A DNA stretch of 64,000 nucleotides, taken from the NCBI RefSeq assembly GCF_902809835.1, contig NZ_CADDWM010000015.1:434001-498000 (forward strand), written 5' to 3'. The notes beneath the pieces were generated by a model that worked only from the letters and a program-made list of their open reading frames with translations, searched no databases and was not told the DNA's origin. This document shows, in pieces, positions 18,395-31,633 of the stretch. The stretch comes from Agromyces sp. Marseille-P2726. Its GTDB lineage: Bacteria > Actinomycetota > Actinomycetes > Actinomycetales > Microbacteriaceae. The number at the start of each line of letters is the position of its first letter. Positions within the stretch are counted from its first letter, which is position 1. A program made the position numbers and the translations under genes.

Positions 18395-19234
18395 ATGCAG
18401 GCGACACGGGCCCGGAACGATGAACGGCGTCATGCCGAATGGCGAGTCCAGCAACGGTGGACCCAGGCCAGACTCGCAGAGTTGGCCGGTCTGAGCGGGC
18501 GGTCGCGGCGCACCCTCGAGGAAGCCATCGTGCTGCGCCACTTGGACGTGGTCGACGGTGTGGTGCGCCGCCTGGCGTCGGGGTACCGCGAGCAGGAGGA
18601 CCTCCGGCAGGTCGGTCGCATCGGCCTGGTGCAGGCGGTGCGACGCTTCGATCTCGCTCGCGGAGACAGCTTCATCGCCTTCGCGATGCCGACGATCGCC
18701 GGTGAGATCAAGAGATACCTGCGCGATTGCGGATGGTTCGTCCGGCCGCCCCGCCCCGTCCAGGAACTGGCCGCCGAGGCGCAGTCCGCCGGCGAGGAGC
18801 TCGTGCAGCGGCTGGGTCGCCAACCGAGCACGAGGGAGATCGCAGAGCAGCTCAACCGGCCGCGAGCGCTGGTCGCCGAGGCGGTCGTGGCTCACGAGAA
18901 CCTCAGGCCGGTGTCGCTGGATGTCGCCGGCGATGACGACGAGGCGTGGGTCTCGTCATTCGGCCGTCAGGATCCTCGGCTCGAGCGCGCGGACCTCCGA
19001 TTGTCGCTCCGGCAGGCGCTGGCTCGCCTGCGGCCGCGCGAACGACGCATCGTGTTCCTCCGCTTCGTCGAGGAACGCACCCAACGCGAGATCGCCGCCG
19101 ACATCGGTGTCACCCAGATGCAGGTCTCCCGGCTGCTCGCCGGCATCCTCGAGCGGCTGCGCCGGGAGCTCGAGGAGCCCGCGGCGGGCGCCCAGCCCGA
19201 TCCGATGCACCCCACGCGGAGCATCGCGGCCTGA
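18395..19234 (+). CDS. RNA polymerase sigma factor, group 3 (SigB/SigF-like)
   Basis: A 279-residue alternative sigma factor. Region 2 is REQEDLRQVGRIGLVQAVRRFDLARGDSFIAFAMPTIAGEIKR (about 65-110, split here only by reading), region 3 contains LGRQPSTREIAEQL, and region 4 is LRPRERRIVFLRFVEERTQREIAADIGVTQMQVSRLL. This matches the SigB/SigF/SigG stress and development group. An approximately 50-residue basic N-terminal extension precedes region 2. No anti-sigma or anti-anti-sigma gene is next to it, so post-translational control, if any, is encoded elsewhere. The ribosome binding site GGAGGG is 6 nt before the ATG. Confidence 0.92.
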   Translation: MQATRARNDERRHAEWRVQQRWTQARLAELAGLSGRSRRTLEEAIVLRHLDVVDGVVRRLASGYREQEDLRQVGRIGLVQAVRRFDLARGDSFIAFAMPTIAGEIKRYLRDCGWFVRPPRPVQELAAEAQSAGEELVQRLGRQPSTREIAEQLNRPRALVAEAVVAHENLRPVSLDVAGDDDEAWVSSFGRQDPRLERADLRLSLRQALARLRPRERRIVFLRFVEERTQREIAADIGVTQMQVSRLLAGILERLRRELEEPAAGAQPDPMHPTRSIAA

Positions 19235-19245
19235 TCGTGCGTGCC

Positions 19246-20211
19246 TCACAGGTGGTCGCCGACTCGGGACGAGGTCTCCAGGACCCGCTCGGCAGCCGCC
19301 AGCACCTCGGGAGGCCGGACGGCGAGCAATGCCGGATCGGGCTCGTCGGCGAAGATGTCTCCCCGACGACGCGCCTCATCGGTGAGCACGATGTGCGGGC
19401 CGGCCGGCGGGCCCCACTCCTCGGGCGGCGCAGGTCCGAACAGCACGACCGACGGCCGATGATAGGCCGACGCGAGATGCGCAGCGCCCGTGTCGCCCGA
19501 CACGACGAGCGCGGCATCCGCGATGACGGCCGCCAGCCCGTGCAGGTCGAGGCGGCCGGCGAGCACCGACGTGTCGGGAAGGGCGGCATGGGACGCCACC
19601 GCCTCGGCGCGGTCGCGTTCCTCGGGGCCCGCAGTAACGACCACGTCGAGGCCACGGCGCCGCAGGCCGCTCGCGACCGTCCCGAACCGGGCGACGGGCC
19701 ACCGGCGTGCCCCGTAGAACGCGCCGACGTGCACCACGGCCGCGCCCGGCGCGACGGAGCGCACCTCGGGCTTCGCGATGGCGAGGTCCGCGGCATCCGC
19801 GGGGATGCCCCACGCGCTGACGAGCCGCGCCCAGCGCTCGCGTTCGTTGATCCCGTCGACCCACTCGGGTCCCTCGGGCGCGTCGGGCGCGTGGGCGAGG
19901 AGGCGCCCGGGCGCGAGTTCGGTCAGCAGGCGGCCGCTCTCGGGGCCTCGGCCGTGCAGGTTCACGGCGACGTCGACGTCGCGCCCATCGAGGTCGAGCG
20001 AGGCATCAAGACCCTGTGCCGGCAGGAGTTCGTCGACGGCGTCGACAAGCTCGACGATCGGCGCGAGCCACCCGGTCGTCGCGAGCACGATCCGGTGCCG
20101 CGGGAAGCCCCTGCGCAGGGCACGCAACGCTGGCACGGCCACGAGCAGGTCGCCGAGCTTGAGCGCGCGAAGTGCGACCAGGATCGGCCGCGGGTCATCC
20201 CTGGCGGACAT
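19246..20211 (-). CDS. GT9-family glycosyltransferase (heptosyltransferase-like), copy 1
   Basis: A 321-residue GT-B glycosyltransferase of family GT9, the family of ADP-heptose:LPS heptosyltransferases. N-terminal ILVALRALKLGDLLVAVPALRAL is the typical GDxL..P.L start; the donor-binding half has VHVGAFYGARRWP and VSGDTGAAHLASA, the family D-T/S-G-x-x-H-L motif. ATG 20211 is chosen because the family similarity begins there. It diverges from the gmhB operon across 87 bp and converges closely on the sigma factor gene (11 bp), so it belongs to the heptose island. Confidence 0.88.
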   Translation of the reverse strand: MSARDDPRPILVALRALKLGDLLVAVPALRALRRGFPRHRIVLATTGWLAPIVELVDAVDELLPAQGLDASLDLDGRDVDVAVNLHGRGPESGRLLTELAPGRLLAHAPDAPEGPEWVDGINERERWARLVSAWGIPADAADLAIAKPEVRSVAPGAAVVHVGAFYGARRWPVARFGTVASGLRRRGLDVVVTAGPEERDRAEAVASHAALPDTSVLAGRLDLHGLAAVIADAALVVSGDTGAAHLASAYHRPSVVLFGPAPPEEWGPPAGPHIVLTDEARRRGDIFADEPDPALLAVRPPEVLAAAERVLETSSRVGDHL

Positions 20212-20298
20212 CCCGCCAGCATCGCAGGTCGCGTCGCACGTGCGGAAGCCCGGCCCTCGCGACGTTTGGGTGCCCGAGAAGTGGGTATCGAAACGAGT

Positions 20299-20835
20299 AT
20301 GGCGACTCGCGTACCACGCGCCGTGCTGTTCGATCGCGACGGCACGCTGATCCGTGACGTGCCGTACAACGGCGACCCCGAGTACGTCGTGCCGATGCCC
20401 ACCGTGGCCGATGCGCTCGGGGCACTTCGCCGCCGAGGCGTGCTCGTCGGGGTGGTGTCGAATCAGTCGGGGATCGCTCGCGGGCTGCTCACCCGGCGTG
20501 AGGTGGACGCCGTCAACGCGCGGGTCGACGGGTTGCGGGGTCCGTTCGATGTCTGGCGCATCTGCCCCCAGGGCGAGGACGACGGCTGCGCCTGCCGCAA
20601 GCCGGCGCCGGGAATGGTGGTCTCCGCGTGCCGGGCACTGGGTGTCGCCCCGTCGGAGACCGCGCTGATCGGCGACATCGCGGCGGACATGGGTGCCGCA
20701 TCCGCGGCGGGCGTGCACGGCATCCTCGTGCCGAACACGACGACCCGGCGCGACGAGGTGCGAGGCGCGGCCGAGGTCGCCGCCACCGTGGGCGAGGCGG
20801 TCCGACGCCTGCTCGGGGAGGGCGGGAGCACATGA
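20299..20835 (+). CDS. gmhB: D-glycero-beta-D-manno-heptose-1,7-bisphosphate 7-phosphatase-like HAD (GmhB)
   Basis: A 178-residue HAD-IIIA phosphatase of the GmhB/HisB-N type, predicted to remove the 7-phosphate from heptose 1,7-bisphosphate. The nucleophile motif is LFDRDGTLIRDV (near residue 12), motif II is VVSNQSG, and RKPAPGM plus LIGDIAADM complete the active site. The zinc loop has Cys89, Cys97 and Cys99, but the usual His two residues after the first Cys is Gln91. It is the first gene of a coupled operon: its stop overlaps the next ATG. Confidence 0.85.
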   Translation: MATRVPRAVLFDRDGTLIRDVPYNGDPEYVVPMPTVADALGALRRRGVLVGVVSNQSGIARGLLTRREVDAVNARVDGLRGPFDVWRICPQGEDDGCACRKPAPGMVVSACRALGVAPSETALIGDIAADMGAASAAGVHGILVPNTTTRRDEVRGAAEVAATVGEAVRRLLGEGGST

Positions 20836-21923
20836 CGCGGGAACGACGCCGTCGGGTGCTCGTGGCCCGGCTCGACAGCATGGGGGACGTGCTCCTCTGC
20901 GGGCCCGCCGTTCGCGCCGTGGCCGCGTGCGCCGAGGTCCACCTCCTGTGCGGGCCGCGAGGTGCGGCCGCCGGGCGGATGCTGCCGGGGGTGGCGGCGA
21001 AGCACGTGTGGGACGCGCCGTGGATCGCAGCGGAGCCGGCGCCGCCGGCCTCGCACGCCCACATCGCTGCCCTCGAGACGATCGTCGAGGAAGCGCGCCC
21101 GGACGCGGCCGTCATCCTCACGTCCTTCCACCAGAGCCCGCTGCCGTTGGCCCTCCTGCTCCGCATGAACGGGGTCGCGCACGTGACCGGCGCGTCGGTG
21201 GACTACGCGGGCTCCCTGCTCGACGTGCGCCTCCGACCCGGCGAGGACTTTCCCGAGGAGCAGTCCGAGGTGGCCCGAGCGCTCACGATCGCCCGAGCCG
21301 GCGGGTTCGAACTTCCTCCCGGAGACGACGGCCGGCTGGCGGTCGTCACCGCCCCGGGCCGTCCGCCCGGCCTCCCGAAGGATTACGTGGTCATCCACCC
21401 GGGCGCTGCCGTGGAGTCCCGCGCCTGGCCGGCCGAGCGGCACCGCGAACTCGTCGCACTCCTGCGCGCCGCCGCGATCGAGGTCGTCGTGACCGGCGGT
21501 CCCGACGAGCGGGAGCTCGTGTCTCGGGTCGCCGGCGGAGGGGCCACCGATCTCGGAGGACGCACACCGCTCCCCGACCTCGCGCGCGTGCTCCGCGCTG
21601 CCGACGTCGTCGTCGCCGGCAACACCGGCGCAGCGCACCTGGCGGCCGCCGTCGGGACACCGGTGGTGAGCCTTTTCTCCCCCGTCGTGTCGGAACGGTG
21701 CTGGCGTCCGTTCGGCGTGCCGACCGTCGTGTTCGGGCGAACGGATGTCGCGTGCGCGGGCACTCGAGCACGGACATGTCCGGTACCCGGACATCCGTGC
21801 CTCGCGGACGTGCTCCCGTCCTCGGTCGCGGCGGCGGTGCTGGCGCTCCGGCCTGCAGCGCCGGGCGCAGCATCCGACTCCTCGGCCCCGGTCGAGCGAT
21901 CGGCGGAAGCGGTGCCGGCATGA
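20832..21923 (+). CDS. GT9-family glycosyltransferase (heptosyltransferase-like), copy 2
   Basis: A 363-residue GT9 enzyme expected to transfer a heptosyl residue from an ADP-heptose donor. VLVARLDSMGDVLLCGPAVRAV opens the N-terminal domain; VIHPGAAVESRAWP and VAGNTGAAHLAAAVGTPVV are the donor-site motifs. The ATG overlaps the gmhB stop (ATGA at 20832-20835), and its own stop overlaps the next start. The C-terminal 35 residues are Ala/Ser-rich and probably disordered. The acceptor is not known. Confidence 0.88.
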   Translation: MTRERRRRVLVARLDSMGDVLLCGPAVRAVAACAEVHLLCGPRGAAAGRMLPGVAAKHVWDAPWIAAEPAPPASHAHIAALETIVEEARPDAAVILTSFHQSPLPLALLLRMNGVAHVTGASVDYAGSLLDVRLRPGEDFPEEQSEVARALTIARAGGFELPPGDDGRLAVVTAPGRPPGLPKDYVVIHPGAAVESRAWPAERHRELVALLRAAAIEVVVTGGPDERELVSRVAGGGATDLGGRTPLPDLARVLRAADVVVAGNTGAAHLAAAVGTPVVSLFSPVVSERCWRPFGVPTVVFGRTDVACAGTRARTCPVPGHPCLADVLPSSVAAAVLALRPAAPGAASDSSAPVERSAEAVPA

Positions 21924-22951
21924 GGATCCTGCTCTGGCACGTGCATGGCGGCTGGACCGACGCGTTCGTCCGTGGTCGGCACGACTACGTGCTGCCCGTC
22001 GACGAGCGCCGCGGTCCTTGGGGGCTCGGCCTCGCAGGTCGTCCGTGGCCGCATGCGGTGGAGGTTCCATTCTCCGACCTCCGCTACGAGGACATCGACC
22101 TCGTGCTGCTGCAGCGCACGGAGGATCTCGTGCTCGCAGAGGCGCTGCTCGGACGGGTCCCCGGCGTCGACGTGCCCGCGGTGTTCGTCGAGCACAACAC
22201 GCCGAAGCCGTACGCGGCCACGACGCGGCATCCGCTCGCCGACCGTGACGACCTGCTCATCGTCCATGTCACCCACTTCAACCAGTTGATGTGGGACGTC
22301 GGCAGTACGAGGTCGACCGTCATCGAACACGGCCTGCCGGATCCGGGCCTACGGTATCGGGGCGACCTCGAGCGCATGGCGGTGGTGGTCAACGAACCCG
22401 TCCGCCGCGGCCGGATCACCGGCACGGACCTGCTTCCCCACTTCACCCGTGCGGGCCGCCTCGACCTGTTCGGCATGGGCGTCGACGCCGTCCCGTCAGC
22501 GCTCGGTGTCGACCCCGTCCTGATCCGTCCCTGCGGAGAGCTGCCGACGCCCCAGCTGCATGACGCCCTCGCGCATCGGCGCCTCTACCTCCACACGACC
22601 CGATGGACCTCCCTCGGCCTGTCCCTCATCGAGGCGATGCTCCTCGGGATGCCGGTCGTCGTGCTGCAGTCCACCGACGCCGCCAGAGCGGTGCCTCCCG
22701 GCGCCGGATTCGTCTCGGCCGACCTCGGCGAACTCGTGTCCGCCGCGCGGTGGCTGCTCGAGGATCCCGAGCAAGCTGCGGTCGTGGGCCGAACCGCCCG
22801 TGAGACCGCGCTCGAACGGTACCGGCTGTCGCGATTCCTGGCGGACTGGGATGCCCTCATCGGGGACGAGGTCGGTCGACCCGTGGGCCGCGGACGCGCC
22901 GTCGCGTTCGATGCGGCCGGGTTCGGGTCGACCGAATGGAAGGAGACATGA
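21920..22951 (+). CDS. GT-B glycosyltransferase (group 1-like)
   Basis: A 343-residue glycosyltransferase. It begins [19 protein letters not shown] and has a C-terminal donor-binding region with [20 protein letters not shown], the E-x7-type motif of group 1 GT-B enzymes. [22 protein letters not shown] and [13 protein letters not shown] lie in the acceptor half. It is the third gene of the coupled operon (ATGA overlap at 21920-21923). Proteins of this type occur in actinobacterial glycan clusters; donor and acceptor cannot be assigned from sequence. Confidence 0.8.
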
Positions 22952-24198
22952 TGCGCATCGCGATGATCTCGGAGCACGCCAGCCCTCTCGCGACCTTGGG
23001 CGGCGTGGATGCCGGCGGCCAGAACGTGCACGTCGCCGCGCTGTCCACCGCCCTCGCCCGCCGCGGGCACCAGGTTCGGGTGTACACGCGCCGCGACGAC
23101 GCCACGCTGCCCCGCACGGTCACCTTCGCCCCGGGCGTCGACGTGGTGCACGTCGCAGCGGGAGCGCCAGAGCACATCCCCAAGGACGCGCTGCTCCCCC
23201 ACATGGCGGCGCTCGCTGCCGGCATCGCCGAGGACTGGCGGGTCTGGCGGCCGGATGTCGCGCACGGGCACTTCTGGATGTCGGGGCTCGCGACCCTCGA
23301 CGCGGCCGCAGCGATACCTGAGCCACCGGCGGTCCTGCAGACCTTCCATGCACTCGGCGTTGTCAAGCGACGCCACCAGGGTCCGGCCGACACCAGTCCT
23401 CGGGAACGCGAGTGGCTGGAGCCGGATGTCGGGCGTCGCGCCGACCGAGTCGTCGCGACCTGCTCCGACGAGGCGTTCGAGCTCAAGAAACTCGGCGTGC
23501 AGCAGGATCGCATCTCGGTGATCCCGTGCGGCGTCGATCTCGACCATTTCCGGCCGGAGGGTGATGGTGAGGCGAAACGGCGCCCGTACCGCGTGCTCAT
23601 CGTCGGTCGTCTCGTGCCGCGGAAGGGCGTCGGCACGGTGATCGAGGCGATCTCGCAGCTCGCAGCCGACGGCATCGACGCCGAGCTCGTCATCGTCGGC
23701 GGCGGGGCTCCTGCCGGCGGGGGCGACCCGGAACTCACCCGGCTCGCGGAACTCGCCGACCGGTTCGGTGTGACGGATCGGGTCGAGCTCCGGGGTCAGG
23801 TCCCGCAGTCCGACCTGCCGCCCGTCTACCGGTCGGCGGATGTCGTGGTGTGCGCGCCCTGGTACGAGCCATTCGGTATCGTGCCGCTCGAGGCGATGGC
23901 GAGCGGCCGGGCCGTGGTGGCGTCGTCGGTCGGAGGGCTCATCGACACCGTGGTGCACGCCCGGACGGGACTCCACGTACCGCCACGTGACCCCACGGCC
24001 GTCGCGGGTGCCATCCGCGAACTGCTCGAAGACCCTGCGAGAGCCGACCGGCTCGGCTCAGCGGGTCGCCGCCGCGTCGAGTCGCGCTACTCCTGGGACC
24101 GTGTCGCGGCAGATACCGAACGCGCGTACCGCACGGCGCTTCGGCGGCCGCGGCTCGCGGCCGCGGGAGGCTCGGCAGCCCGGGGAGTGGGGCGATGA
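22948..24198 (+). CDS. GT4-family glycosyltransferase
   Basis: A 416-residue GT-B enzyme of family GT4. The N-terminal [24 protein letters not shown] loop resembles MshA and sucrose-phosphate synthase-type enzymes, and the C-terminal half has [17 protein letters not shown] and [23 protein letters not shown] 22948 is chosen because GGAAGGAG lies just upstream and it makes the ATGA overlap used throughout this operon; an ATG at 22936 is possible. It lies immediately before gmhA. The sugar donor is unknown, and the family uses several UDP/GDP-sugars. Confidence 0.88.
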
Positions 24199-24836
24199 AC
24201 GCCATCGGCATCTCCGGCGCGGCCTCGAGCGCCCGACTGGCCGGTGCCTCCCGTGCGGTCGCGACCGAGGCGTCACCCGTCGCGGCGCATCTCTCGGAGG
24301 CGGTCGCCGCGGTCGCCGCGCTGGCGGACGAGGCCGAGCACATCACGCGCTGGGGACGAGAGCTCGCAGGCCGACTCGCTGGCGGCGGCAGGCTGCTCGT
24401 CGCCGGCAACGGCGGATCCGCCGCGGAGGCCCAGCACCTCGCTGCCGAGCTCACGGGTCGCTTCCGCGAGGACCGGCCCCCGTTCTCGGCGATCGCCTTG
24501 AACACCGACACCTCGGCCATCACCGCGATCGGCAACGATTACGGGTTCTCCGAGGTCTTCGCACGTCAGGTCAGGGCGCACGGCCGCCGTGGTGACATCC
24601 TCCTGCTGCTCTCGACGAGTGGTGCCAGTGCGAACCTGCTGCGCGCCGCCGCTGCCGCCGCCGAACTCGACATGGTGCGGTGGAGCATGACGGGGTCCGC
24701 GCCCAATCCGCTGCGCGCTGCGTGCGACGACGGCATCTCCCTTTGCGGGCCGAGCGCCAACGTCCAGGAAGCCGAACTCGTGGCAGTGCACGCGTTGTGC
24801 GTGGCCTTCGAAGAGGCGTTGGAGGGGTCCCCGTGA
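24195..24836 (+). CDS. gmhA: Sedoheptulose-7-phosphate isomerase-like SIS protein (GmhA)
   Basis: A 213-residue SIS-domain protein predicted to convert sedoheptulose 7-phosphate to D-glycero-D-manno-heptose 7-phosphate, the first committed step to nucleotide heptoses. [24 protein letters not shown] is the GmhA signature with the substrate-binding Ser and zinc/substrate His; [15 protein letters not shown] and [13 protein letters not shown] follow. The final [12 protein letters not shown] carries the expected E/H pair. The N-terminal 25 residues are extra. Four-base overlaps tie it to the GT4 gene and to the PfkB kinase. Confidence 0.9.
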
Positions 24837-25765
24837 ACCCGCGCATCCTCGTGCTCGGCGACGTCCTGCTCGACGTCGACCTGGCCGGCGGCGCGAGCCG
24901 GCTCTCACCCGACGGGCCGGTGCCGGTTGTCGACGTCACCGAGCGAGTGGAGCGTGCGGGCGGCGCCGGGCTGGTCGCGACGTTCCTCGCCGCGGATGGC
25001 GCCGAGGTCACGCTCGCCACCGCGATCGCGGAAGACGCCCGTGGTCAGCGGATCCGAACGCTCCTGCATGGCGTGCGGCTCGCGGCAGCGGAGCTCGCGG
25101 CCCCCACGCCGACGAAGACCCGCGTGCACGCCGGGGCTCATCCGGTGGCCCGCATCGACGAGGGATGCGGGGCGCCCGGACGCATCCGGCGGATGAGCGT
25201 GGTCATCGAGGAGATCCGCACGGCGGACCTCGTCGTGGCCGCCGACTACGGCCGTGGACTCCTCGCCGGCGAGCAGGTGCGAACCGCACTCGCCCGGCGC
25301 GCCGAGGACATCCCCATCGTGTGGGATCCCCACCCGCGCGGAACCAGTCCGGTACCGGGGTGCCGTCTCGTCACCCCGAATCGCGCGGAGGCGGCCGGGA
25401 TCGAGGGCATCGCCGTCGACGACGCCCGGCACGCGCTCGACGTGGCGGCGGACCTGAGGGTGCGATGGAACGCGCGCTGCGTCGCAGTGACCCTCGACGC
25501 GGACGGCGCCGCGGTCGCCCTCGACGACGGCAGCCACTCGTTGCTGCCCACGCGTCGCGTGCAGGTCACGGACTCCTGTGGGGCGGGCGATCGGCTCGCC
25601 TCCGCGGCGGCCCTGCAGCTCGCATCGGGCGCGCCCGTGCTCGACGCCGTGCGGTCCGGAGTGGCCCTTGCGACGGACTTCCTCGAAGCCGGTGGTGTCG
25701 CCGCGCTACCCAGGCACCGTGCCGGGCCGTTTGAACGCCGGCCTCCCCTCGCCGCGGTCGGCTGA
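24833..25765 (+). CDS. PfkB-family kinase related to the heptose-7-phosphate kinase domain, divergent
   Basis: A 310-residue ribokinase-family protein resembling the kinase half of HldE (ILVLGDVLLDVDL, SPDGPVPVVDV, PTKTRVHAG, AADYGRGLL). Two key regions differ: the GGxxxN substrate motif reads GGAGLVAT (about residues 43-50), lacking the Asn, and the anion-hole motif reads CGAGDRLAS in place of GAGDT, though the catalytic Asp stays. The GTG start makes a GTGA overlap with gmhA. A true HldE is encoded 2 kb downstream, so this copy may use another substrate or have a regulatory role. Confidence 0.82.
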   Translation: MNPRILVLGDVLLDVDLAGGASRLSPDGPVPVVDVTERVERAGGAGLVATFLAADGAEVTLATAIAEDARGQRIRTLLHGVRLAAAELAAPTPTKTRVHAGAHPVARIDEGCGAPGRIRRMSVVIEEIRTADLVVAADYGRGLLAGEQVRTALARRAEDIPIVWDPHPRGTSPVPGCRLVTPNRAEAAGIEGIAVDDARHALDVAADLRVRWNARCVAVTLDADGAAVALDDGSHSLLPTRRVQVTDSCGAGDRLASAAALQLASGAPVLDAVRSGVALATDFLEAGGVAALPRHRAGPFERRPPLAAVG

Positions 25766-25818
25766 ACCCGCACCGCTCTCGAATCGAACACATCGCATCC
25801 GCGACGAAAGGAGCATCC

Positions 25819-26562
25819 ATGTCCGACACCATGGTGAACGAGCAGACCCGCCGTTCGACGCGCCGGGCGGTCCGTGAGGACCGCAACCCGGGGCGCACGA
25901 TCATCACCGGTGGAGCGGCGGGCCTCGGCGCGGCGATCGCCGACGCCGTGGCCTCAGCAGGCGGCATCCCGATCGTCTTCGATCTGGCCGAGTCGGCAGA
26001 TCACGAGTCGCACGCGGTCGACGTGTCGGCGACACGTGAGCTCGAGGCTGTGGTCACCGAGGTCGCGGCCCTGCACGGCGGCCTCGACTCGGTGGTGACC
26101 GCGGCCGGAATCGACCGGTGCGGGCCGCTGGACGCGGTCGCCCCGAGCGAGTGGGAGCGAGTGATCGCGGTCAACCTGCTCGGCACGGCCGCGACCGTGC
26201 GCGCCGCATTGCCCCACTTGATGGAGTCGCGCGGCAGGGTGGTCACGGTCACCTCGACGCTCGCCCTGCGCGGCGCGGCCGACGCCACCGCCTACTGCGC
26301 CTCGAAGTTCGGCGTGCTCGGATTCACCCGCGCGCTCGCGGCGGAGACGGCCGGACGGGTGGGAGTCAGCGCGCTCATCCCCGGTGGCATGCGGACCGGG
26401 TTCTTCGACGACCGCGCCGAGCAGTACCGTCCGGGACCCGACGCCGACCTGAACGATCCGGCCGACGTGGCCGACGCGGTGGTGTTCGCGCTCACCCGGC
26501 CCGTCGGATTCGAGGTCCGCGAGCTGCTGGTGTGCCCGGCCGGCGAGACGTCGTGGCCATGA
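25819..26562 (+). CDS. Short-chain dehydrogenase/reductase
   Basis: A 247-residue classical SDR with an N-terminal Rossmann fold (TIITGGAAGLGAAIADAV), the catalytic Ser in TVTSTLAL, and YCASK (Tyr/Lys pair). The acidic FDLAE after strand 2 favours NAD over NADP. It lies 53 bp after the PfkB gene with its own ribosome binding site (AAAGGAG). It is a classical, not extended, SDR and so is not an HldD-type heptose epimerase. It may oxidise or reduce a sugar in the same pathway; the substrate is unknown. The 3' end overlaps the convergent GT9 gene by 71 bp. Confidence 0.85.
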   Translation: MSDTMVNEQTRRSTRRAVREDRNPGRTIITGGAAGLGAAIADAVASAGGIPIVFDLAESADHESHAVDVSATRELEAVVTEVAALHGGLDSVVTAAGIDRCGPLDAVAPSEWERVIAVNLLGTAATVRAALPHLMESRGRVVTVTSTLALRGAADATAYCASKFGVLGFTRALAAETAGRVGVSALIPGGMRTGFFDDRAEQYRPGPDADLNDPADVADAVVFALTRPVGFEVRELLVCPAGETSWP

Positions 26563-27640
26563 GCAGGCGGGCGTCGGCGAGTACGGCATCGGCCTCGACG
26601 TCGGCGACGAATGAGACGTCGTGCTCGCAGCGCTCGGCCGTCCATCCCACCTGCGTGATGTCCACCGCGCACACGGGGCAGTGCGTCGTGAAGGACAGGT
26701 GCACTCGATGACGTCCGCGGCCGAACGGCGCGGCGTTCACGACGTTGCCGAACCAGAACACGCCGACGGTGGGTGCCCCGACCGCTTGAGCCAGGTGGCG
26801 GGGGCCGCTGTCGTCCGCCACGACGAGATCGGCCCGTTCGAGCACTGCCGCCGTCTCACCCAGCTGCAGTCGGCCTGCCAGCCGCAGGATGCCGCGGCCA
26901 GCGGCTCCCGACTGCTGCACGATGTCGGCCTCGATGGCACGATCCGACTCGTCACCGACGATCGCGACCCGCGCGCCGTCGTCGAGGAGCCCTCGGACCA
27001 CGTGCGCGAAGCGGTCGGACGGCCATCGACGCCGCGGATCCGTCGCGCCGGGGTGGACGACGACGAGGGGCTGCTCCCCGGTCGGGAGGAGCTCGGCGGC
27101 GCGTGCACGCTCACCGGGCAGCACCGCGAACGTGGGCTCGAGCTCGACGGGCGGCGCCCCGGCGAGCCCCGCCAGCTCGAGGCCGCGGACGACCTCGTGC
27201 TGGTAGTACGCGTACGGCAGGGTCCGCTCCAACGGTGGAGCGTCCTCCGTCGCCGACCCCACCGTGTGCCGGGCGCCGAGCGCGAGCACGAACGGGTTCG
27301 AGTTGCGGCCGCCACCGTGGAGCTGCACGGCGAGATCGAACCGCAGGCCGCGCATCCGCTCGAGGAACGCCTCCTCGTCCTCCCCCATCGTTCCCGCAGC
27401 GTCACGAATGCCGGGCGCGTGCGGCAGGACCTCGACGCGGTCCACCGGCCCCGGACGCCCGCTGAGCAGTCGGGCGTGCAGCGGCGTGCCAAGCAGCACG
27501 ATCTCGGCGTCGGGGTACGCCGCCTCGAGGGCGGTCAGCGCCGGCATCGCGAACAGCAGGTCACCGATCCCGCCGCCGCGCAGCACGGCGATCCGCCGCA
27601 CATCGTCGAACCGGTCCTCGAGCGGTGCCACGCCCTGCAT
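26492..27640 (-). CDS. GT9-family glycosyltransferase (heptosyltransferase-like), copy 3
   Basis: A 382-residue GT9 enzyme. IAVLRGGGIGDLLFAMPALTALEAAYP is the N-terminal signature; VVVHPGATDPRRRWP and VADDSGPRHLAQAVGAPTV form the donor site. Cysteines in THCPVCAVDITQ resemble the Cys motif of some GT9 enzymes. ATG 27640 has AGGAGG 5 nt upstream. It diverges from hldE across 106 bp and overlaps the convergent SDR gene for 71 bp at the 3' end. Three GT9 genes in one island suggest several successive heptose additions. Confidence 0.88.
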   Translation of the reverse strand: MQGVAPLEDRFDDVRRIAVLRGGGIGDLLFAMPALTALEAAYPDAEIVLLGTPLHARLLSGRPGPVDRVEVLPHAPGIRDAAGTMGEDEEAFLERMRGLRFDLAVQLHGGGRNSNPFVLALGARHTVGSATEDAPPLERTLPYAYYQHEVVRGLELAGLAGAPPVELEPTFAVLPGERARAAELLPTGEQPLVVVHPGATDPRRRWPSDRFAHVVRGLLDDGARVAIVGDESDRAIEADIVQQSGAAGRGILRLAGRLQLGETAAVLERADLVVADDSGPRHLAQAVGAPTVGVFWFGNVVNAAPFGRGRHRVHLSFTTHCPVCAVDITQVGWTAERCEHDVSFVADVEADAVLADARLLMATTSRRPGTPAARGPRIRRAG

Positions 27641-27746
27641 TCGTCCTCCTGCCGTGTCGGTCGGAAAGCTGCCAGTCACCTTCCCCGGATCGGGCGTGCT
27701 GAAACCCGGCGCATGCGTGTTGCCGGCGATGGGTAGGGAGTCGCAC

Positions 27747-29231
27747 ATGGAGACGACCGCAGCCGCCGCAGAGCAGATTCGTCATCGCCGCCCACGCGTC
27801 GTCGTCGTCGGCGATGCGCTCCTCGATCGCTGGTGGAACGGCCGAAGCCGGCGCCTCAGCCGCGAAGCGCCCGCACCGGTCGTCGAGCTCGCCGACGTGC
27901 TCGAGGCACCCGGCGGCGCAGCGAACACGGCGGCGAATGTCGCCGCGCTCGGCGCGCGCTGCGAGCTGGTGGCGGGCATCGGGCGGGATGCGGCGGGTGA
28001 GGCCCTCATCGCAGCGCTGGATCGTGTCGGCGCATCGACCCGGTACGTGCGCCGTGACCCCGGACGCCGGACGGTCACCAAGACGCGGATCGTCGCCGAC
28101 GACCAGGTTCTCGCACGCGTCGACGACGCCCGGCCGGTCGACCATCCGGGCCCGAGCCGTGACCCCGGCGAGCTCGCCGACCACCTCACCGCGGCGCTCC
28201 GGGGCGCGGACGCACTCATCGTGAGCGACTACGGATCGAGCACCCTCCCCGATGTGGTGCACGAAGCGCTCGAGAGGGTGGCGCATCCGCCGGTGGTTCT
28301 CGTCGATGCGCACGACCTCGCCCGCTGGCACCGACTCCACCCTGACGTGGTCGTGCCGAACGCCGACGAGGCGGGCCGACTGCTGGGAACGAGCCTGGGC
28401 GAATCGCGGGACCGGCGCCGGACTGCGACCCGCGCGTCGTCCGAGCTGCTCGATCGCTCCGGCGCGCGTGCGGTCATCGTCACACTCGACCGCGACGGAG
28501 CGGTGCTGCTGCGACGAGGCGCCGAGCCGGTCGTCACGTCGGCGCACCCGGTCTCCGAGCGATTCGCCGCAGGCGCCGGCGACACCTTCGCGGCCGCGAT
28601 CGCCACGGCCCTGGCCTCGGATGTGCCGCTACCCATGGCGATGCGGCTCGCCCAGGGCGCCGCCGATGTCGCGCTCGCCCACGAGGGGACGACGGTGTGC
28701 ACCGGAGACGAGCTGATGCGCCGCCTGGCGCACCCGCCCGCCGCGCTCCTGGATGCCGCGACGGTGCACGAGCAGATCGACCGTCATCGTGCGGACGGGC
28801 AGCGAGTCGTGTTCACGAACGGATGTTTCGACGTGCTGCACGTGGGCCACACGACGTACCTCAAGCAGGCCCGCGAGCTCGGCGATGTGCTGGTGGTCGG
28901 GGTGAACAGCGACGACTCCGTCCGGCGGTTGAAGGGGCCGGCGCGACCGGTCAATTCCGCAGAAGACCGTGCCGGGCTCCTCGCGGCGCTCGAGTGGGTG
29001 GACTACGTCACCGTCTTCGACGAGGACACCCCGATCGCGCTGATCGAGCGCCTGCGCCCCGACGTCTACGTCAAGGGCGGCGACTACAGCCCCGAGATGC
29101 TCGCCGAGACGCCGGTCGTCGAGGCGTACGGGGGCGAGGTCCGGTTGGTCGACTATGTGCCCGATCACTCCACGACGGCGCTCGTCGAGCGGATCAGGTC
29201 GACGACGCAGCCGGCCGAGGAACTGCGATGA
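27747..29231 (+). CDS. hldE: Bifunctional heptose-7-phosphate kinase / heptose-1-phosphate adenylyltransferase (HldE)
   Basis: A 494-residue fusion. The N-terminal PfkB kinase (about 15-320) has VVVGDALLDRWWNG, an intact GGAANTAANVAALGA substrate motif and FAAGAGDTFAA. The C-terminal cytidylyltransferase-like domain (about 345-494) has TNGCFDVLHVGHTTYLKQAR and VYVKGGDYSPE. The kinase phosphorylates D-glycero-beta-D-manno-heptose 7-phosphate at C1; the second domain makes ADP-heptose after GmhB acts. This is the same fusion order as proteobacterial HldE. ATG 27747 follows AGGGAG, and its stop overlaps the GT2 start. Confidence 0.93.
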   Translation: METTAAAAEQIRHRRPRVVVVGDALLDRWWNGRSRRLSREAPAPVVELADVLEAPGGAANTAANVAALGARCELVAGIGRDAAGEALIAALDRVGASTRYVRRDPGRRTVTKTRIVADDQVLARVDDARPVDHPGPSRDPGELADHLTAALRGADALIVSDYGSSTLPDVVHEALERVAHPPVVLVDAHDLARWHRLHPDVVVPNADEAGRLLGTSLGESRDRRRTATRASSELLDRSGARAVIVTLDRDGAVLLRRGAEPVVTSAHPVSERFAAGAGDTFAAAIATALASDVPLPMAMRLAQGAADVALAHEGTTVCTGDELMRRLAHPPAALLDAATVHEQIDRHRADGQRVVFTNGCFDVLHVGHTTYLKQARELGDVLVVGVNSDDSVRRLKGPARPVNSAEDRAGLLAALEWVDYVTVFDEDTPIALIERLRPDVYVKGGDYSPEMLAETPVVEAYGGEVRLVDYVPDHSTTALVERIRSTTQPAEELR

Positions 29232-30094
29232 CGCGTTCCGCTCGGCGCTGGTCGGGTGAGTGGGGGCGGGTCCTCCCACCGGAGGAGGACGTCGAGGTCG
29301 ACGTCCTGATCCCGACGGTGGGTCGCATCCCGGAACTGGCTGCAACCCTCGCGGGGCTCGCTGCCCAGGACGCGCCGCGGTTCGGCGTGATCATCGGCGA
29401 TCAGTCCTCGGATGCCGCGACCGCGCGCCATCCGGTCATCGCCTCCCTGCTCCGGGTCCTCGAGGCGGAGGGGCATCCCGTGTCCGTGCTCCCCCACACC
29501 GAGCGCCGCGGACTGGCGGAGCATCGCCAGTTCCTCCTGGACCGGGCGTCGGCGCCGGCGGTGCTGTTCCTCGACGACGACGTCTGGCTCGAGCCGGGTG
29601 CCCTGGAGCGCATGCACGATGCGCTCCGGGAACTCGGGTGCGGGTTCGTGGGGCAGGCCGTCCAGGGACTGTCGTACCTGCCCGACCGTCGCGACCACGA
29701 GGCGCGCAGCTTCGAGCTCTGGGACGGGCCGGTGAACCCCGAGCGCATCCGCCCCGACTCGCCCGAGTTCGAGCGGTGGCGGTTGCACAACGCGGCGAAC
29801 CTCGCGCACGTCGCGAGCCGCCTCGAGGTGCCCGACGGCGGTTGGCGCGCGTACCGCATCGCATGGGTCGGCGCGTGCGTCCTGTTCGACCGGCGAGCGC
29901 TCGTCGAGTGCGGCGGGTTCGGCTTCTGGCGTGATCTGCCGACGGACCACGCCGGCGAGGACGTCGTGGCGCAGTGGCGGGTGATGGAGCGCTACGGGGG
30001 CGCGGGGCTCGTCCCGAGCGGCGCCGTGCACCTGGAGTCGCCGACCACCGTGACCGACCGGCGCACGGAGGCGTCACGGGCGCTGCGCGTGTGA
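29228..30094 (+). CDS. GT2-family glycosyltransferase
   Basis: A 288-residue GT-A enzyme. VDVLIPTVGRIPELAATLAGLAAQ is the N-terminal nucleotide-sugar fold, VLFLDDDVWLEPGAL carries the DxD-type metal motif, and GGFGFWRDLPTDHAGEDV provides the ED catalytic-base region. No membrane span is visible. The ATG overlaps the hldE stop (ATGA at 29228-29231), which ties it to heptose metabolism. A bidirectional terminator follows 17 bp after the stop. Donor and acceptor are unknown. Confidence 0.87.
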   Translation: MTRSARRWSGEWGRVLPPEEDVEVDVLIPTVGRIPELAATLAGLAAQDAPRFGVIIGDQSSDAATARHPVIASLLRVLEAEGHPVSVLPHTERRGLAEHRQFLLDRASAPAVLFLDDDVWLEPGALERMHDALRELGCGFVGQAVQGLSYLPDRRDHEARSFELWDGPVNPERIRPDSPEFERWRLHNAANLAHVASRLEVPDGGWRAYRIAWVGACVLFDRRALVECGGFGFWRDLPTDHAGEDVVAQWRVMERYGGAGLVPSGAVHLESPTTVTDRRTEASRALRV

Positions 30095-30137: not shown

Positions 30138-30144
30138 GTCGTGG

Positions 30145-30216
30145 TGGGCGATACTGGGTTCGAACCAGTGACCTCTTCCGTGTCAGGGAAGCGCGCTACC
30201 GCTGCGCCAATCGCCC
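30145..30216 (-). tRNA. tRNA-Val (anticodon GAC)
   Basis: A 72-nt cloverleaf on the minus strand: acceptor GGGCGAT/ATCGCCC, D arm GCGCAGCGGTAGCGC, anticodon stem CTTCC/GGAAG with loop CTGACAC (anticodon GAC), T loop GGTTCGAACCC, discriminator A. No CCA is encoded. It is the last of three minus-strand tRNAs that share one promoter. Confidence 0.96.
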
Positions 30217-30241
30217 AAGTCCGAGATGCTCTCGGCTTGAG

Positions 30242-30312
30242 AGGTGGATACGGGATTCGAACCCGTGTATACGGCTTTGCAGGCCGCTGCCTCGCCTCTC
30301 GGCCAATCCACC
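30242..30312 (-). tRNA. tRNA-Cys (anticodon GCA)
   Basis: A 71-nt minus-strand tRNA: acceptor GGTGGAT/ATCCACC, anticodon loop CTGCAAA (GCA), T arm GGGTTCGAATCCC and discriminator U73, the identity base of cysteine tRNAs. It lies between tRNA-Gly and tRNA-Val in one transcript. Confidence 0.96.
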
Positions 30313-30369
30313 GTGTCTGGGTTCACCACCATGAGAACAGGAATCGGGCTCACGCCCGATCCTGATCAG

Positions 30370-30442
30370 AGCGGATGACGAGACTCGAACTCGCGACCCT
30401 CACCTTGGCAAGGTGATGCGCTACCAACTGCGCCACATCCGC
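30370..30442 (-). tRNA. tRNA-Gly (anticodon GCC)
   Basis: A 73-nt minus-strand tRNA: acceptor GCGGATG/CATCCGC, anticodon stem CACCT/AGGTG with loop TGCCA-type sequence giving GCC, T loop GTTCGAGTC, discriminator U. It is the first of the Gly-Cys-Val transcript. Confidence 0.96.
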
Positions 30443-30469
30443 GTTGCCCGCATTTCTGCGTGCAGAGAG

Positions 30470-30499
30470 ACTCTAACGGATACCCCGATCGATTCACAA
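30470..30499 (-). promoter_or_regulatory. Promoter of the tRNA Gly-Cys-Val transcript
   Basis: Reading the minus strand, TTGTGA (30499-30494) and TAGAGT (30475-30470) are 18 bp apart, a good -35/-10 pair, about 30 bp upstream of tRNA-Gly. Confidence 0.65.
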
Positions 30500-30534
30500 A
30501 CCGAACGGACGCGTGACACGATCGCTCGCCGATG

Positions 30535-30563
30535 TGCAAACGCACGGCGCGGTCGGCTAGTAT
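30535..30563 (+). promoter_or_regulatory. Promoter of tRNA-Val(CAC)
   Basis: TGCAAA (30535-30540) and TAGTAT (30558-30563) are separated by 17 bp, with tRNA-Val starting 35 bp downstream. It diverges from the Gly-Cys-Val promoter. Confidence 0.65.
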
Positions 30564-30598
30564 CGAGTCCGCGGTCGGAGCGATTCGGCCCATCCTTC

Positions 30599-30671
30599 GG
30601 GCGATTGGCGCAGCTGGTAGCGCGCTTCCTTCACACGGAAGAGGTCGTCGGTTCGAGCCCGGCATCGCCCA
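30599..30671 (+). tRNA. tRNA-Val (anticodon CAC)
   Basis: A 73-nt plus-strand tRNA: acceptor GGGCGAT/ATCGCCC, anticodon stem CTTCC/GGAAG with loop TTCACAC (CAC), T loop GGTTCGAGCCC, discriminator A. Its acceptor and anticodon stems are the same as in the GAC isoacceptor, which lies inverted about 0.4 kb away. Confidence 0.96.
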
Positions 30672-30702
30672 CGAACGCCCCCACTCCACTGGGGGCGTTC
30701 GT
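30671..30702 (+). terminator. Terminator after tRNA-Val(CAC)
   Basis: ACGAACGCCCCCA (30671-30683) pairs perfectly with TGGGGGCGTTCGT (30690-30702) around a six-base loop, starting at the tRNA's last base. It should end the tRNA-Val(CAC) transcript. Confidence 0.85.
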
Positions 30703-31063: not shown

Positions 31064-31633
31064 TCAGCGCCAGCCGTACCGGTCACGGAGTGCGCCGGTG
31101 ATGCGCGCGTACCGGGCGGCGTCGAGCGACGCGGCTTCCCGTCGCATTCCGCCGCTGCGCACTCGGAACACGCGGTCGATTCGCGCCCAGCTGGGACGAC
31201 CGGAGGCATCCCAGGCGCCGTGGCCCAATGCCACGTAGTCGCGATCGCCGTCGTGCGGCCTGCTCGTCAGCTGGACCGCGAGGAAGTCACCGTCTCGGGA
31301 CGCCGCGACGATCGCCACGGGACGATCCTTGCCTCGTCCGTCCCGCTCCTCGTACGGCACCCAGGTCCACACGATCTCACCGGGGTCGGGATCGCCGTCT
31401 CGCGACGGGGCGTACGCCAGGCGCACGCGCTGGAGTCGTGAGGGATCCACCTCGATGGTCGCGTCGGGCCCTGCCTGCCCGGGCGACAGGAGCCCCGTGC
31501 CGGTCGACGTCCCCGTCGATGTCGCCGACGCGGCATCGGACCCGGGCTGTGAACGTGCGGCCGATCTGCGACTGCCCGACAGCGAGCGGATGACACGACC
31601 GAGGGCGGTGAGGAAGCGACTGGTGTCCGACAC
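31064..31633 (-). CDS. PemK/MazF-like protein, solitary
   Basis: A 189-residue protein. The C-terminal two-thirds match the PemK/MazF toxin fold: PDPGEIVWTWVPYEERDGRGKDRPVAIVA is the opening strand and loop, followed by VQLTSRPHDGDRDYVALG. The first 75 residues are Ser/Thr/Gly-rich and look disordered. No antitoxin gene is adjacent: upstream is amt (51 bp away) and downstream is a VOC remnant. MazF-type toxins are ribosome-independent endoribonucleases; without an antitoxin this homologue may be domesticated or inactive. Confidence 0.75.
   Translation of the reverse strand: MSDTSRFLTALGRVIRSLSGSRRSAARSQPGSDAASATSTGTSTGTGLLSPGQAGPDATIEVDPSRLQRVRLAYAPSRDGDPDPGEIVWTWVPYEERDGRGKDRPVAIVAASRDGDFLAVQLTSRPHDGDRDYVALGHGAWDASGRPSWARIDRVFRVRSGGMRREAASLDAARYARITGALRDRYGWR

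Follow-up and report, generated by a model that had tools for sequence, protein, structure and literature searches.

What does a monoderm actinobacterium make with genes for nucleotide-heptose synthesis and heptose transfer? The question is raised by an island of genes in Agromyces sp. Marseille-P2726, at positions 19246-30094 of a stretch of 64,000 nucleotides (positions 434,001 to 498,000 of contig NZ_CADDWM010000015.1), which is called the window here. The answer that we favour, with a probability of roughly 0.58, is that the island is a heptose glycan cluster resembling the cwg operon of Streptomyces coelicolor: ADP-heptose would be made, transferred by glycosyltransferases of family GT9, and built into an envelope-bound glycan. 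An initial annotation had proposed a heptose-containing surface glycan or glycoconjugate in a monoderm. With a nucleotide-heptose pathway encoded beside GT9 genes, a heptose glycoconjugate still appears to be the best reading, but the relationship to cwg had escaped that annotation. That heptose is involved is predicted, on good grounds, from the encoded proteins.

Is the island a unit or a chance assembly? Eleven genes fill it, all with intact reading frames and without frameshifts: GT9a (minus strand), a GmhB-like HAD phosphatase, GT9b, the glycosyltransferase GTd, an MshA-like glycosyltransferase of family GT4 (GT4e), GmhA, a lone HldE-type kinase, a short-chain dehydrogenase (SDR), GT9c (minus strand), the bifunctional HldE1, and a GT2 glycosyltransferase. 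Family scans recovered everything that the initial annotation had listed, namely gmhA-, gmhB-, and hldE-type genes, three GT9, two GT-B, and one GT2 gene, a second PfkB-type kinase, and the SDR. Four-base overlaps, claimed for most junctions, are exact at six of the ten (five ATGA, one GTGA), and the convergent SDR and GT9c genes overlap by 71 bases. Ratios of nonsynonymous to synonymous substitution (dN/dS) between the window and Microbacterium ureisolvens lie between 0.16 and 0.43 across ten genes, with the highest value in GmhB (0.43), so that none of the ten looks dead; the GT2 gene was not found in the M. ureisolvens locus (L050) and was left out of this comparison. Because of these ratios, and because the order GT9b-GTd-GT4-GmhA-HldE2 recurs in other genomes, the island is not a product of chance; it is real, conserved, and under selection.

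Which known system shares this gene order? The S. coelicolor cwg cluster comprises SCO6179-SCO6190, and a published table labels cwgB, cwgC, cwgE, cwgG, and cwgJ as transferases, cwgD as a dehydratase, cwgH as a phosphoheptose isomerase, and cwgI as a bifunctional synthase/transferase (PMC5839063). The cluster has been described as a vancomycin-induced, 12-gene target of sigma-E with a cell wall glycan as its predicted product (PMC6767563); in the available parts of the literature, its wording is that cwg is "predicted" or "tentatively" involved in such a glycan. The main texts of papers discussing cwg regulation, as far as they were available, contain no word beginning with "heptose", and "phosphoheptose isomerase" stands in the table of another paper. 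A Streptomyces plasmid carries a 12-gene operon in the order epimerase, carbamoyltransferase, glycosyltransferase, HAD, GT9, glycosyltransferase, glycosyltransferase, SIS, rfaE, GT9, glycosyltransferase, glycosyltransferase; the same order is found in a class-level genome (L130). It fits seven of the eight cwg labels in the available table, including those at positions 8 and 9 (cwgH and cwgI).

Six window genes follow positions 4 to 9 of the plasmid operon in the same order, all on the plus strand: the GmhB-like HAD-IIIA phosphatase (CwgD-like, 20299..20835; 53% identity), GT9b (CwgE-like, 20832..21923; 57%), GTd (CwgF-like, 21920..22951; 55%), GT4e (CwgG-like, 22948..24198; 51%), GmhA (CwgH-like, 24195..24836; 63%), and the lone kinase (CwgI-like, 24833..25765; 45%). 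The CwgJ-like GT9a (19246..20211, minus strand, start at 20211) shares 45% identity with the GT9 at position 10. This collinearity, together with the fit of the operon order to the printed labels, is why the island is called cwg-like; it appears to be related to the S. coelicolor operon, with rearrangements.

Which enzymes would supply the heptose? HldE1 (27747..29231, plus strand), a predicted bifunctional heptose 7-phosphate kinase/heptose 1-phosphate nucleotidyltransferase, is 37% identical to E. coli HldE over 470 amino acids. Its nucleotidyltransferase domain scores 209.2 bits with TIGR02199, above the NCBIfam cut-off of 181.5, and has as its best PDB match 5x9q, a "putative cytidylyltransferase". 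For both the HldE1 kinase domain and the lone HldE2 kinase the best PDB match is a heptose 7-phosphate kinase (for the latter, 4e84 at E 1.2e-21), and the best matches of GmhA, a predicted sedoheptulose 7-phosphate isomerase, are phosphoheptose isomerases (5i01, E 1.6e-41). The GmhB-like protein lies above the HAD-IIIA cut-off (109.5 versus 44.6 bits); its top PDB match is a putative HAD hydrolase and the next a heptose bisphosphate phosphatase. Both Asp of its DxD motif are retained, as are three Cys at positions that, with His94, we take to be zinc ligands. Elsewhere in the genome (C14:296690-297085) there is a second, weak heptose-nucleotidyltransferase-like domain of 75 bits, below the cut-off and likely another cytidylyltransferase.

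No HldD-type epimerase scores above cut-off in the genome (best 101 bits versus 274.6), whereas the same search gave proteins above cut-off in two of 14 control genomes. This points to the D,D form, with ADP-D-glycero-D-manno-heptose as the likely donor. The island SDR (25819..26562, plus strand; PF00106, 126.1 bits) was considered as an HldD-type enzyme and ruled out: it matches classical short SDR families, and no protein of its genome exceeds the HldD cut-off. The GDP-alpha-heptose pathway of the HddA/HddC type uses a GHMP kinase; no GHMP-type kinase was matched among the 11 island proteins, the rest of the genome lying outside this search.

Three of the six glycosyltransferases belong to GT9, with PF01075 scores of 84.4 bits (GT9a), 85.9 bits (GT9b), and 104.4 bits (GT9c; 26492..27640, minus strand), well over the Pfam cut-off of 22 bits. 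A search of the genome at E <= 0.001 returned these three proteins and no other, all within the island, and gave matches in five of 14 control genomes. Each of the three matches WaaC, WaaF, and another GT9 entry among solved structures. The residues D13, D261, and H266 of E. coli WaaC, presumably catalytic or donor-binding, have equivalents in all 58 relatives of GT9a; in GT9c, D13 and D261 are kept in 47/47 relatives and H266 in 46/47. These sets consist of proteins found by our own caller of open reading frames within a length range, with only five duplicate loci removed.

The remaining transferases would add other sugars. The AlphaFold model of GTd has a mean confidence (predicted local distance difference test, pLDDT) of 85.3, and its best Foldseek match is 7qsg_A, a methylmannose polysaccharide mannosyltransferase; the model identifies GTd as a probable GT-B enzyme of GT4 type. 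GT4e reaches 247 bits with the MshA model TIGR03449, short of the cut-off of 462.5, and the GT2 enzyme (29228..30094, plus strand) scores 56.3 bits with PF00535. Family scans placed none of the 11 island proteins in a membrane-protein family. A plain hydropathy scan gave 19-residue means above 1.6 for GTd (2.00), GT9a (1.75), and the SDR (1.69), and the hydropathic stretch of GTd is a folded helix and strand in the predicted model.

Why are there two HldE-type genes? A tree of nucleotidyltransferase domains (162 domains, 78 left after thinning at 80% identity, with types set by a short motif at the domain start) unites 39 HldE2/CwgI-type domains, the Streptomyces one included, in a clade with support 100; outside it fall 38 other domains, the window HldE1 among them, and E. 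coli HldE. The available part of one report ties the arginine of the STTR5 motif, (F/L)xxGRSTT, to the use of several nucleoside triphosphates (PMC11573728). This arginine occurs in 78/85 HldE2-type and 22/63 HldE1-type domains (near-duplicates kept; ten untyped rows, seven of them with arginine, set apart), which is only a tendency, so that the motif is not a clean divider of the two types. The window HldE1 ends in YVPDHSTT, with His at the arginine position, and has no STTR5 motif.

A CwgI protein with both domains is not present in the window, since HldE1 lies outside the CwgI-type clade and the CwgI-like protein, of 310 amino acids, is a kinase only, the 1 kb that follows its gene showing no nucleotidyltransferase signature. 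The same kinase-only form occurs in M. ureisolvens (309 amino acids) and at two further loci, L041 (288 amino acids) and L127 (320 amino acids); in all three, the signature was not found in the next 1 kb. By contrast, 92 called relatives have both domains, and HldE2 is full-length in Agromyces salentinus. The gene had been annotated as a second PfkB kinase, and a kinase it is, but not a separate PfkB protein: an unrelated PfkB kinase is ruled out by its best matches, which are heptose 7-phosphate kinases, and by its relatives, most of which have a full HldE at the same position. Sequence comparison identifies it as a truncated CwgI-type HldE, the kinase half of a second HldE.

An aldehyde dehydrogenase gene, part of the common layout in the family, is also absent from the window, as it is from several relatives, including other Agromyces. 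Relocation of this gene was considered and rejected: the best match in the genome has only 39% identity, so there is no clear orthologue. A tree of eight concatenated proteins from 37 loci (after removal of four duplicates from 41) joins the window and M. ureisolvens with support 100, with four other Agromyces loci adjoining; this grouping suggests that the island has been exchanged laterally inside the family.

How widely is the cluster distributed? Within the family Microbacteriaceae, an HldE nucleotidyltransferase above cut-off is found in 24/150 genomes, that of the window included (3/14 in the control genomes), and 18 of these 24, by our reading, hold two strong matches on one contig within about 31 kb. 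GTd, used as the hallmark query, has at least 580 relatives in genome contigs, and the best 80 all belong to Actinomycetota genera. Counting the genome of the window, it is present at E <= 1e-30 in 39/396 genomes of the phylum, and in 41/297 genomes of the order. Three sets of loci were compared: 62 named loci with at least 19 kb among those best 80 relatives, 18 of 20 phylum-level loci (one short and one duplicate were dropped), and 25 family regions of 20 kb from 23 genomes. Because the named and phylum-level loci were picked by GTd and the family loci by HldE, the counts show what accompanies the hallmark gene and not how frequent the cluster is.

The strict order GT9b-GTd-GT4-GmhA-HldE2 is found in 52/62 named, 12/18 phylum-level, and 16/25 family loci, and GmhA, HldE, and GT9 together accompany GTd in 55/62, 17/18, and 16/17 GTd-bearing loci, respectively. 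Among the named loci, 58 have GmhA, 56 an HldE, 60 at least one GT9, and 58 an SDR match. The common family layout reads [sigma]-GT9a(-)-GmhB-GT9b-GTd-GT4-GmhA-HldE2-SDR-GT9c(-)-aldehyde dehydrogenase-HldE1-GT2. It is not seen in all 25 regions: several start inside the cluster, four are partial (L024, L028, L033, and L038), and L029 is a different heptose locus. The core cluster recurs across Actinomycetota, patchily. Versions from Micrococcales and a few others add to the core a third GT9 and a second HldE, and often the aldehyde dehydrogenase as well; HldE1 is found in 39/62 named versus 2/18 phylum-level loci. A sigma factor gene adjoins GT9a in 33/62 named, 9/25 family, and 0/18 phylum-level loci. 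Carbamoyltransferase genes are found in 8/62 named and 14/18 phylum-level loci, pyruvyltransferase genes in 4/62 and 4/18, and these two enzymes may decorate the product in other actinobacteria.

Distant relatives of GTd (35-39% identity) lie on ten Burkholderiaceae replicons; on the one that was inspected, the relative stands beside GT9, carbamoyltransferase, and HAD genes. This Paraburkholderia sprentiae plasmid (L163) carries HAD, waaF-like, carbamoyltransferase, glycosyltransferase, and GT9 genes, the GTd relative, and a UDP-glucuronate decarboxylase gene beside an ATP-binding cassette gene, and transfer between Gram-positives and Gram-negatives is possible. A further GTd relative lies close to genes for a relaxase and a sigma factor on the Clavibacter californiensis plasmid pCCa (L162), where the surrounding annotation shows none of the other cluster genes.

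Has the island been inserted recently in Agromyces? Upstream of it lies a linked sigma factor gene (18395..19234, plus strand; Pfam Sigma70_r2, r3, and r4), a possible regulator. Four tRNA genes (Val, Cys, Gly, Val; 30142-30672) follow directly downstream, near a PemK/MazF-like gene (31064-31426) that occupies the same site in other genomes of the genus, and beyond it is a membrane transporter gene, read from its sequence alone as an ammonium transporter. In all four other fetched Agromyces carriers of a cluster, thrS flanks it; on the other side, the transporter could be located in three, and in one of these (G582) other genes spanning about 20 kb separate it from the cluster. In a fifth congener (L151:7814 onward) GTd stands alone, with thrS on one side and the PemK-like and transporter genes on the other, which looks like a cluster remnant. 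Five congeners without GTd were compared: in two, no gene was called from thrS to the PemK-like gene, and in three, other genes occupy the site, on maps drawn with our own codon-score caller, by which genes can be missed. The comparison favours an old cluster that was lost repeatedly over a recent insertion.

How might the encoded enzymes work together? From their families we infer the substrates and the heptose in the product. GmhA, a kinase, GmhB, and the HldE1 nucleotidyltransferase would together yield ADP-D-glycero-D-manno-heptose. The kinase domain of HldE1, the lone HldE2 kinase, or both would phosphorylate C1, the GmhB-like HAD enzyme would remove the 7-phosphate, and the HldE1 nucleotidyltransferase would complete the donor without an epimerase step of the HldD type. 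Heptose would be transferred by GT9a and GT9c, and perhaps by GT9b, and other sugars would come from GTd, the MshA-like GT4, and GT2. An oligosaccharide or glycolipid would be assembled in the cytosol and reach the envelope through a transporter whose gene lies outside the island. The product may play a role in cell-envelope stress, as is suggested by the analogy with S. coelicolor cwg and by the linked sigma factor, which perhaps controls the cluster. In full Micrococcales clusters, the two HldE types might supply two nucleotide-heptose pools, of which the window would keep only the nucleotidyltransferase without the promiscuity motif.

Several observations weigh against a cwg-like heptose glycan. 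Equivalence with cwg was judged from the Streptomyces plasmid operon order and the printed annotation, and not by comparison with the S. coelicolor sequences. One label in the available table does not fit, cwgD being a "dehydratase" and its counterpart, by name, a HAD phosphatase; our guess is that this reflects a resemblance to the bifunctional HisB histidinol-phosphatase/dehydratase model, which the GmhB-like family matches weakly (45 versus 443 bits). No window protein matches the cwgA-C equivalents (epimerase, carbamoyltransferase, and glycosyltransferase) at E <= 1e-5, and neither epimerase nor carbamoyltransferase families appear in the island family scans. Without these equivalents and without the nucleotidyltransferase of CwgI, the island cannot strictly be called a cwg operon. 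In the genus, GTd is present in only 6/60 genomes, that of the window counted and one of them with the lone GTd, so the cluster is dispensable. Moreover, none of the 11 island proteins matched a flippase, polymerase, or ligase family in the scans, so the surface location can only be inferred.

The enzymes themselves give further cause for doubt. The ADP-heptose set proposed by the initial annotation stands in part: the HldE1 nucleotidyltransferase exceeds its cut-off and heptose enzymes are among the best PDB matches, but the other members fall below their equivalog cut-offs. GmhA reaches 164.5 bits with its best model, phosphoheptose isomerase (cut-off 276), the HldE kinase model 201.2 bits (cut-off 345; the lone kinase has 159 bits with TIGR02198), and GmhB 106.1 bits (cut-off 178). 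The GmhB-like protein scores above the cut-off of a histidinol-phosphatase domain as well (102.8 versus 84.15), and it has Gln at the equivalent of His94, which is His in 20/20 others. The heptosyltransferase I, II, and III equivalog models match all three GT9 proteins, none at cut-off. GT9b has Asn at the position of WaaC D261 (GNTG, not GDTG) in 48/48 relatives, with D13 kept in 45/48 and gaps in three; the Streptomyces protein at the CwgE position (L161:8997-10004) likewise has Asn. With this change fixed, it is not safe to speak of three heptosyltransferases: GT9a and GT9c keep the active-site positions, but the GT9b branch may use another donor.

Could the enzymes have drifted to other sugars, so that the island makes an envelope glycan without heptose? 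GT9 is a donor-diverse family, and the models below cut-off, the histidinol-phosphatase match, the D261N change in GT9b, and the altered zinc ligand of GmhB all suit such drift. It is unlikely nonetheless, given that GmhA, HldE, and GT9 stay with GTd across the phylum, that GT9a and GT9c keep the key residues, and that an HldE nucleotidyltransferase scores above cut-off. Hygromycin B, like septacidin, is a Streptomyces heptose product derived from sedoheptulose 7-phosphate, and a small secondary metabolite of this kind might be made in place of an envelope glycan. No flippase or polymerase is found among the island proteins, and the SDR and, in relatives, the aldehyde dehydrogenase could tailor a small molecule; in the part of the report available, septacidin is a precedent for a heptose natural product of bacteria (PMC11573728). 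Yet the family matches listed for the 11 proteins include no peptide synthetase, polyketide synthase, or aminotransferase, consisting instead of sugar enzymes and the SDR. Six glycosyltransferases, a wide phylogenetic spread, a gene order in common with an operon under envelope-stress control, and the carbamoyltransferase and pyruvyltransferase genes of other versions, which suit a decorated glycan, make a secondary metabolite the less likely of these two products.

The lowest probability goes to decay, in which the island would be what is left of a more complete pathway and would no longer give a product in this genome. The absent HldE2 nucleotidyltransferase domain, the missing dehydrogenase orthologue (best match 39%), the lost zinc ligand and highest dN/dS of the ten (0.43) in GmhB, the congener with a lone GTd at the site, and the two whose maps show no gene in the interval from thrS to the PemK-like gene could all be read this way. 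However, all 11 reading frames are intact, dN/dS is 0.16-0.43 for ten genes, and M. ureisolvens, grouped with the window at support 100, shares the kinase-only form.

If the cwg-like heptose glycan is the right reading for this island, what would follow for the phylum? A broader proposal, advanced tentatively and held to be less probable than the reading of the island itself, is that cwg-type clusters of Actinomycetota make heptosylated envelope glycans as a cell-wall-stress response in monoderms. Micrococcales would draw on two nucleotide-heptose pools, one supplied by a CwgI-type HldE that is promiscuous and the other by a second, stricter HldE, and the lineage of the window would have dropped one pool and kept its kinase. 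If true, heptose envelope glycans would not be limited to Gram-negatives, and Gram-positives of soil and phyllosphere would be a source of nucleotide-heptoses that activate ALPK1. The naming of cwg as a cell wall glycan operon is already in print; here it is linked to a cluster that spans the phylum and encodes GT9 enzymes beside a nearly complete nucleotide-heptose pathway. Among the papers listed in literature searches, no title or opening of an abstract reports a heptose cell-wall glycan in actinobacteria, which is not proof of absence. The main value of the link is that the product of cwg can be tested for being a heptose glycan, with a chemical target (heptose) and simple mutants.

How does the island compare with known systems? 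Like the Gram-negative ADP-heptose pathway with WaaC and WaaF, it encodes homologues of GmhA, HldE, and GmhB and has GT9 enzymes with matching active-site positions. It differs in the D261N change of GT9b and in a genome that has no HldD-type epimerase above cut-off; the lineage of the organism implies, in addition, that it has no lipopolysaccharide. With the STTR5-motif synthases of NDP-heptoses, as described in the available part of the report (PMC11573728), the HldE2/CwgI relatives share the arginine (78/85), in contrast to the only complete HldE of the window, which has YVPDHSTT in place of the motif. The septacidin and hygromycin B pathways also make heptose in actinobacteria, and they are set apart, without a gene comparison, by the neighbourhood of the window, which consists of glycosyltransferases and heptose enzymes. 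As judged through the Streptomyces plasmid operon, the closest likeness is to S. coelicolor cwg, with which the window shares the collinear GmhB-GT9-GT-GT4-GmhA-HldE core and a CwgJ-like GT9. In contrast to cwg, the window does not have the epimerase, the carbamoyltransferase, and the first glycosyltransferase, its GT9a is divergent and not downstream, and CwgI is reduced to a kinase, whereas an SDR, a third GT9, a second HldE, and a linked sigma factor are found in addition.

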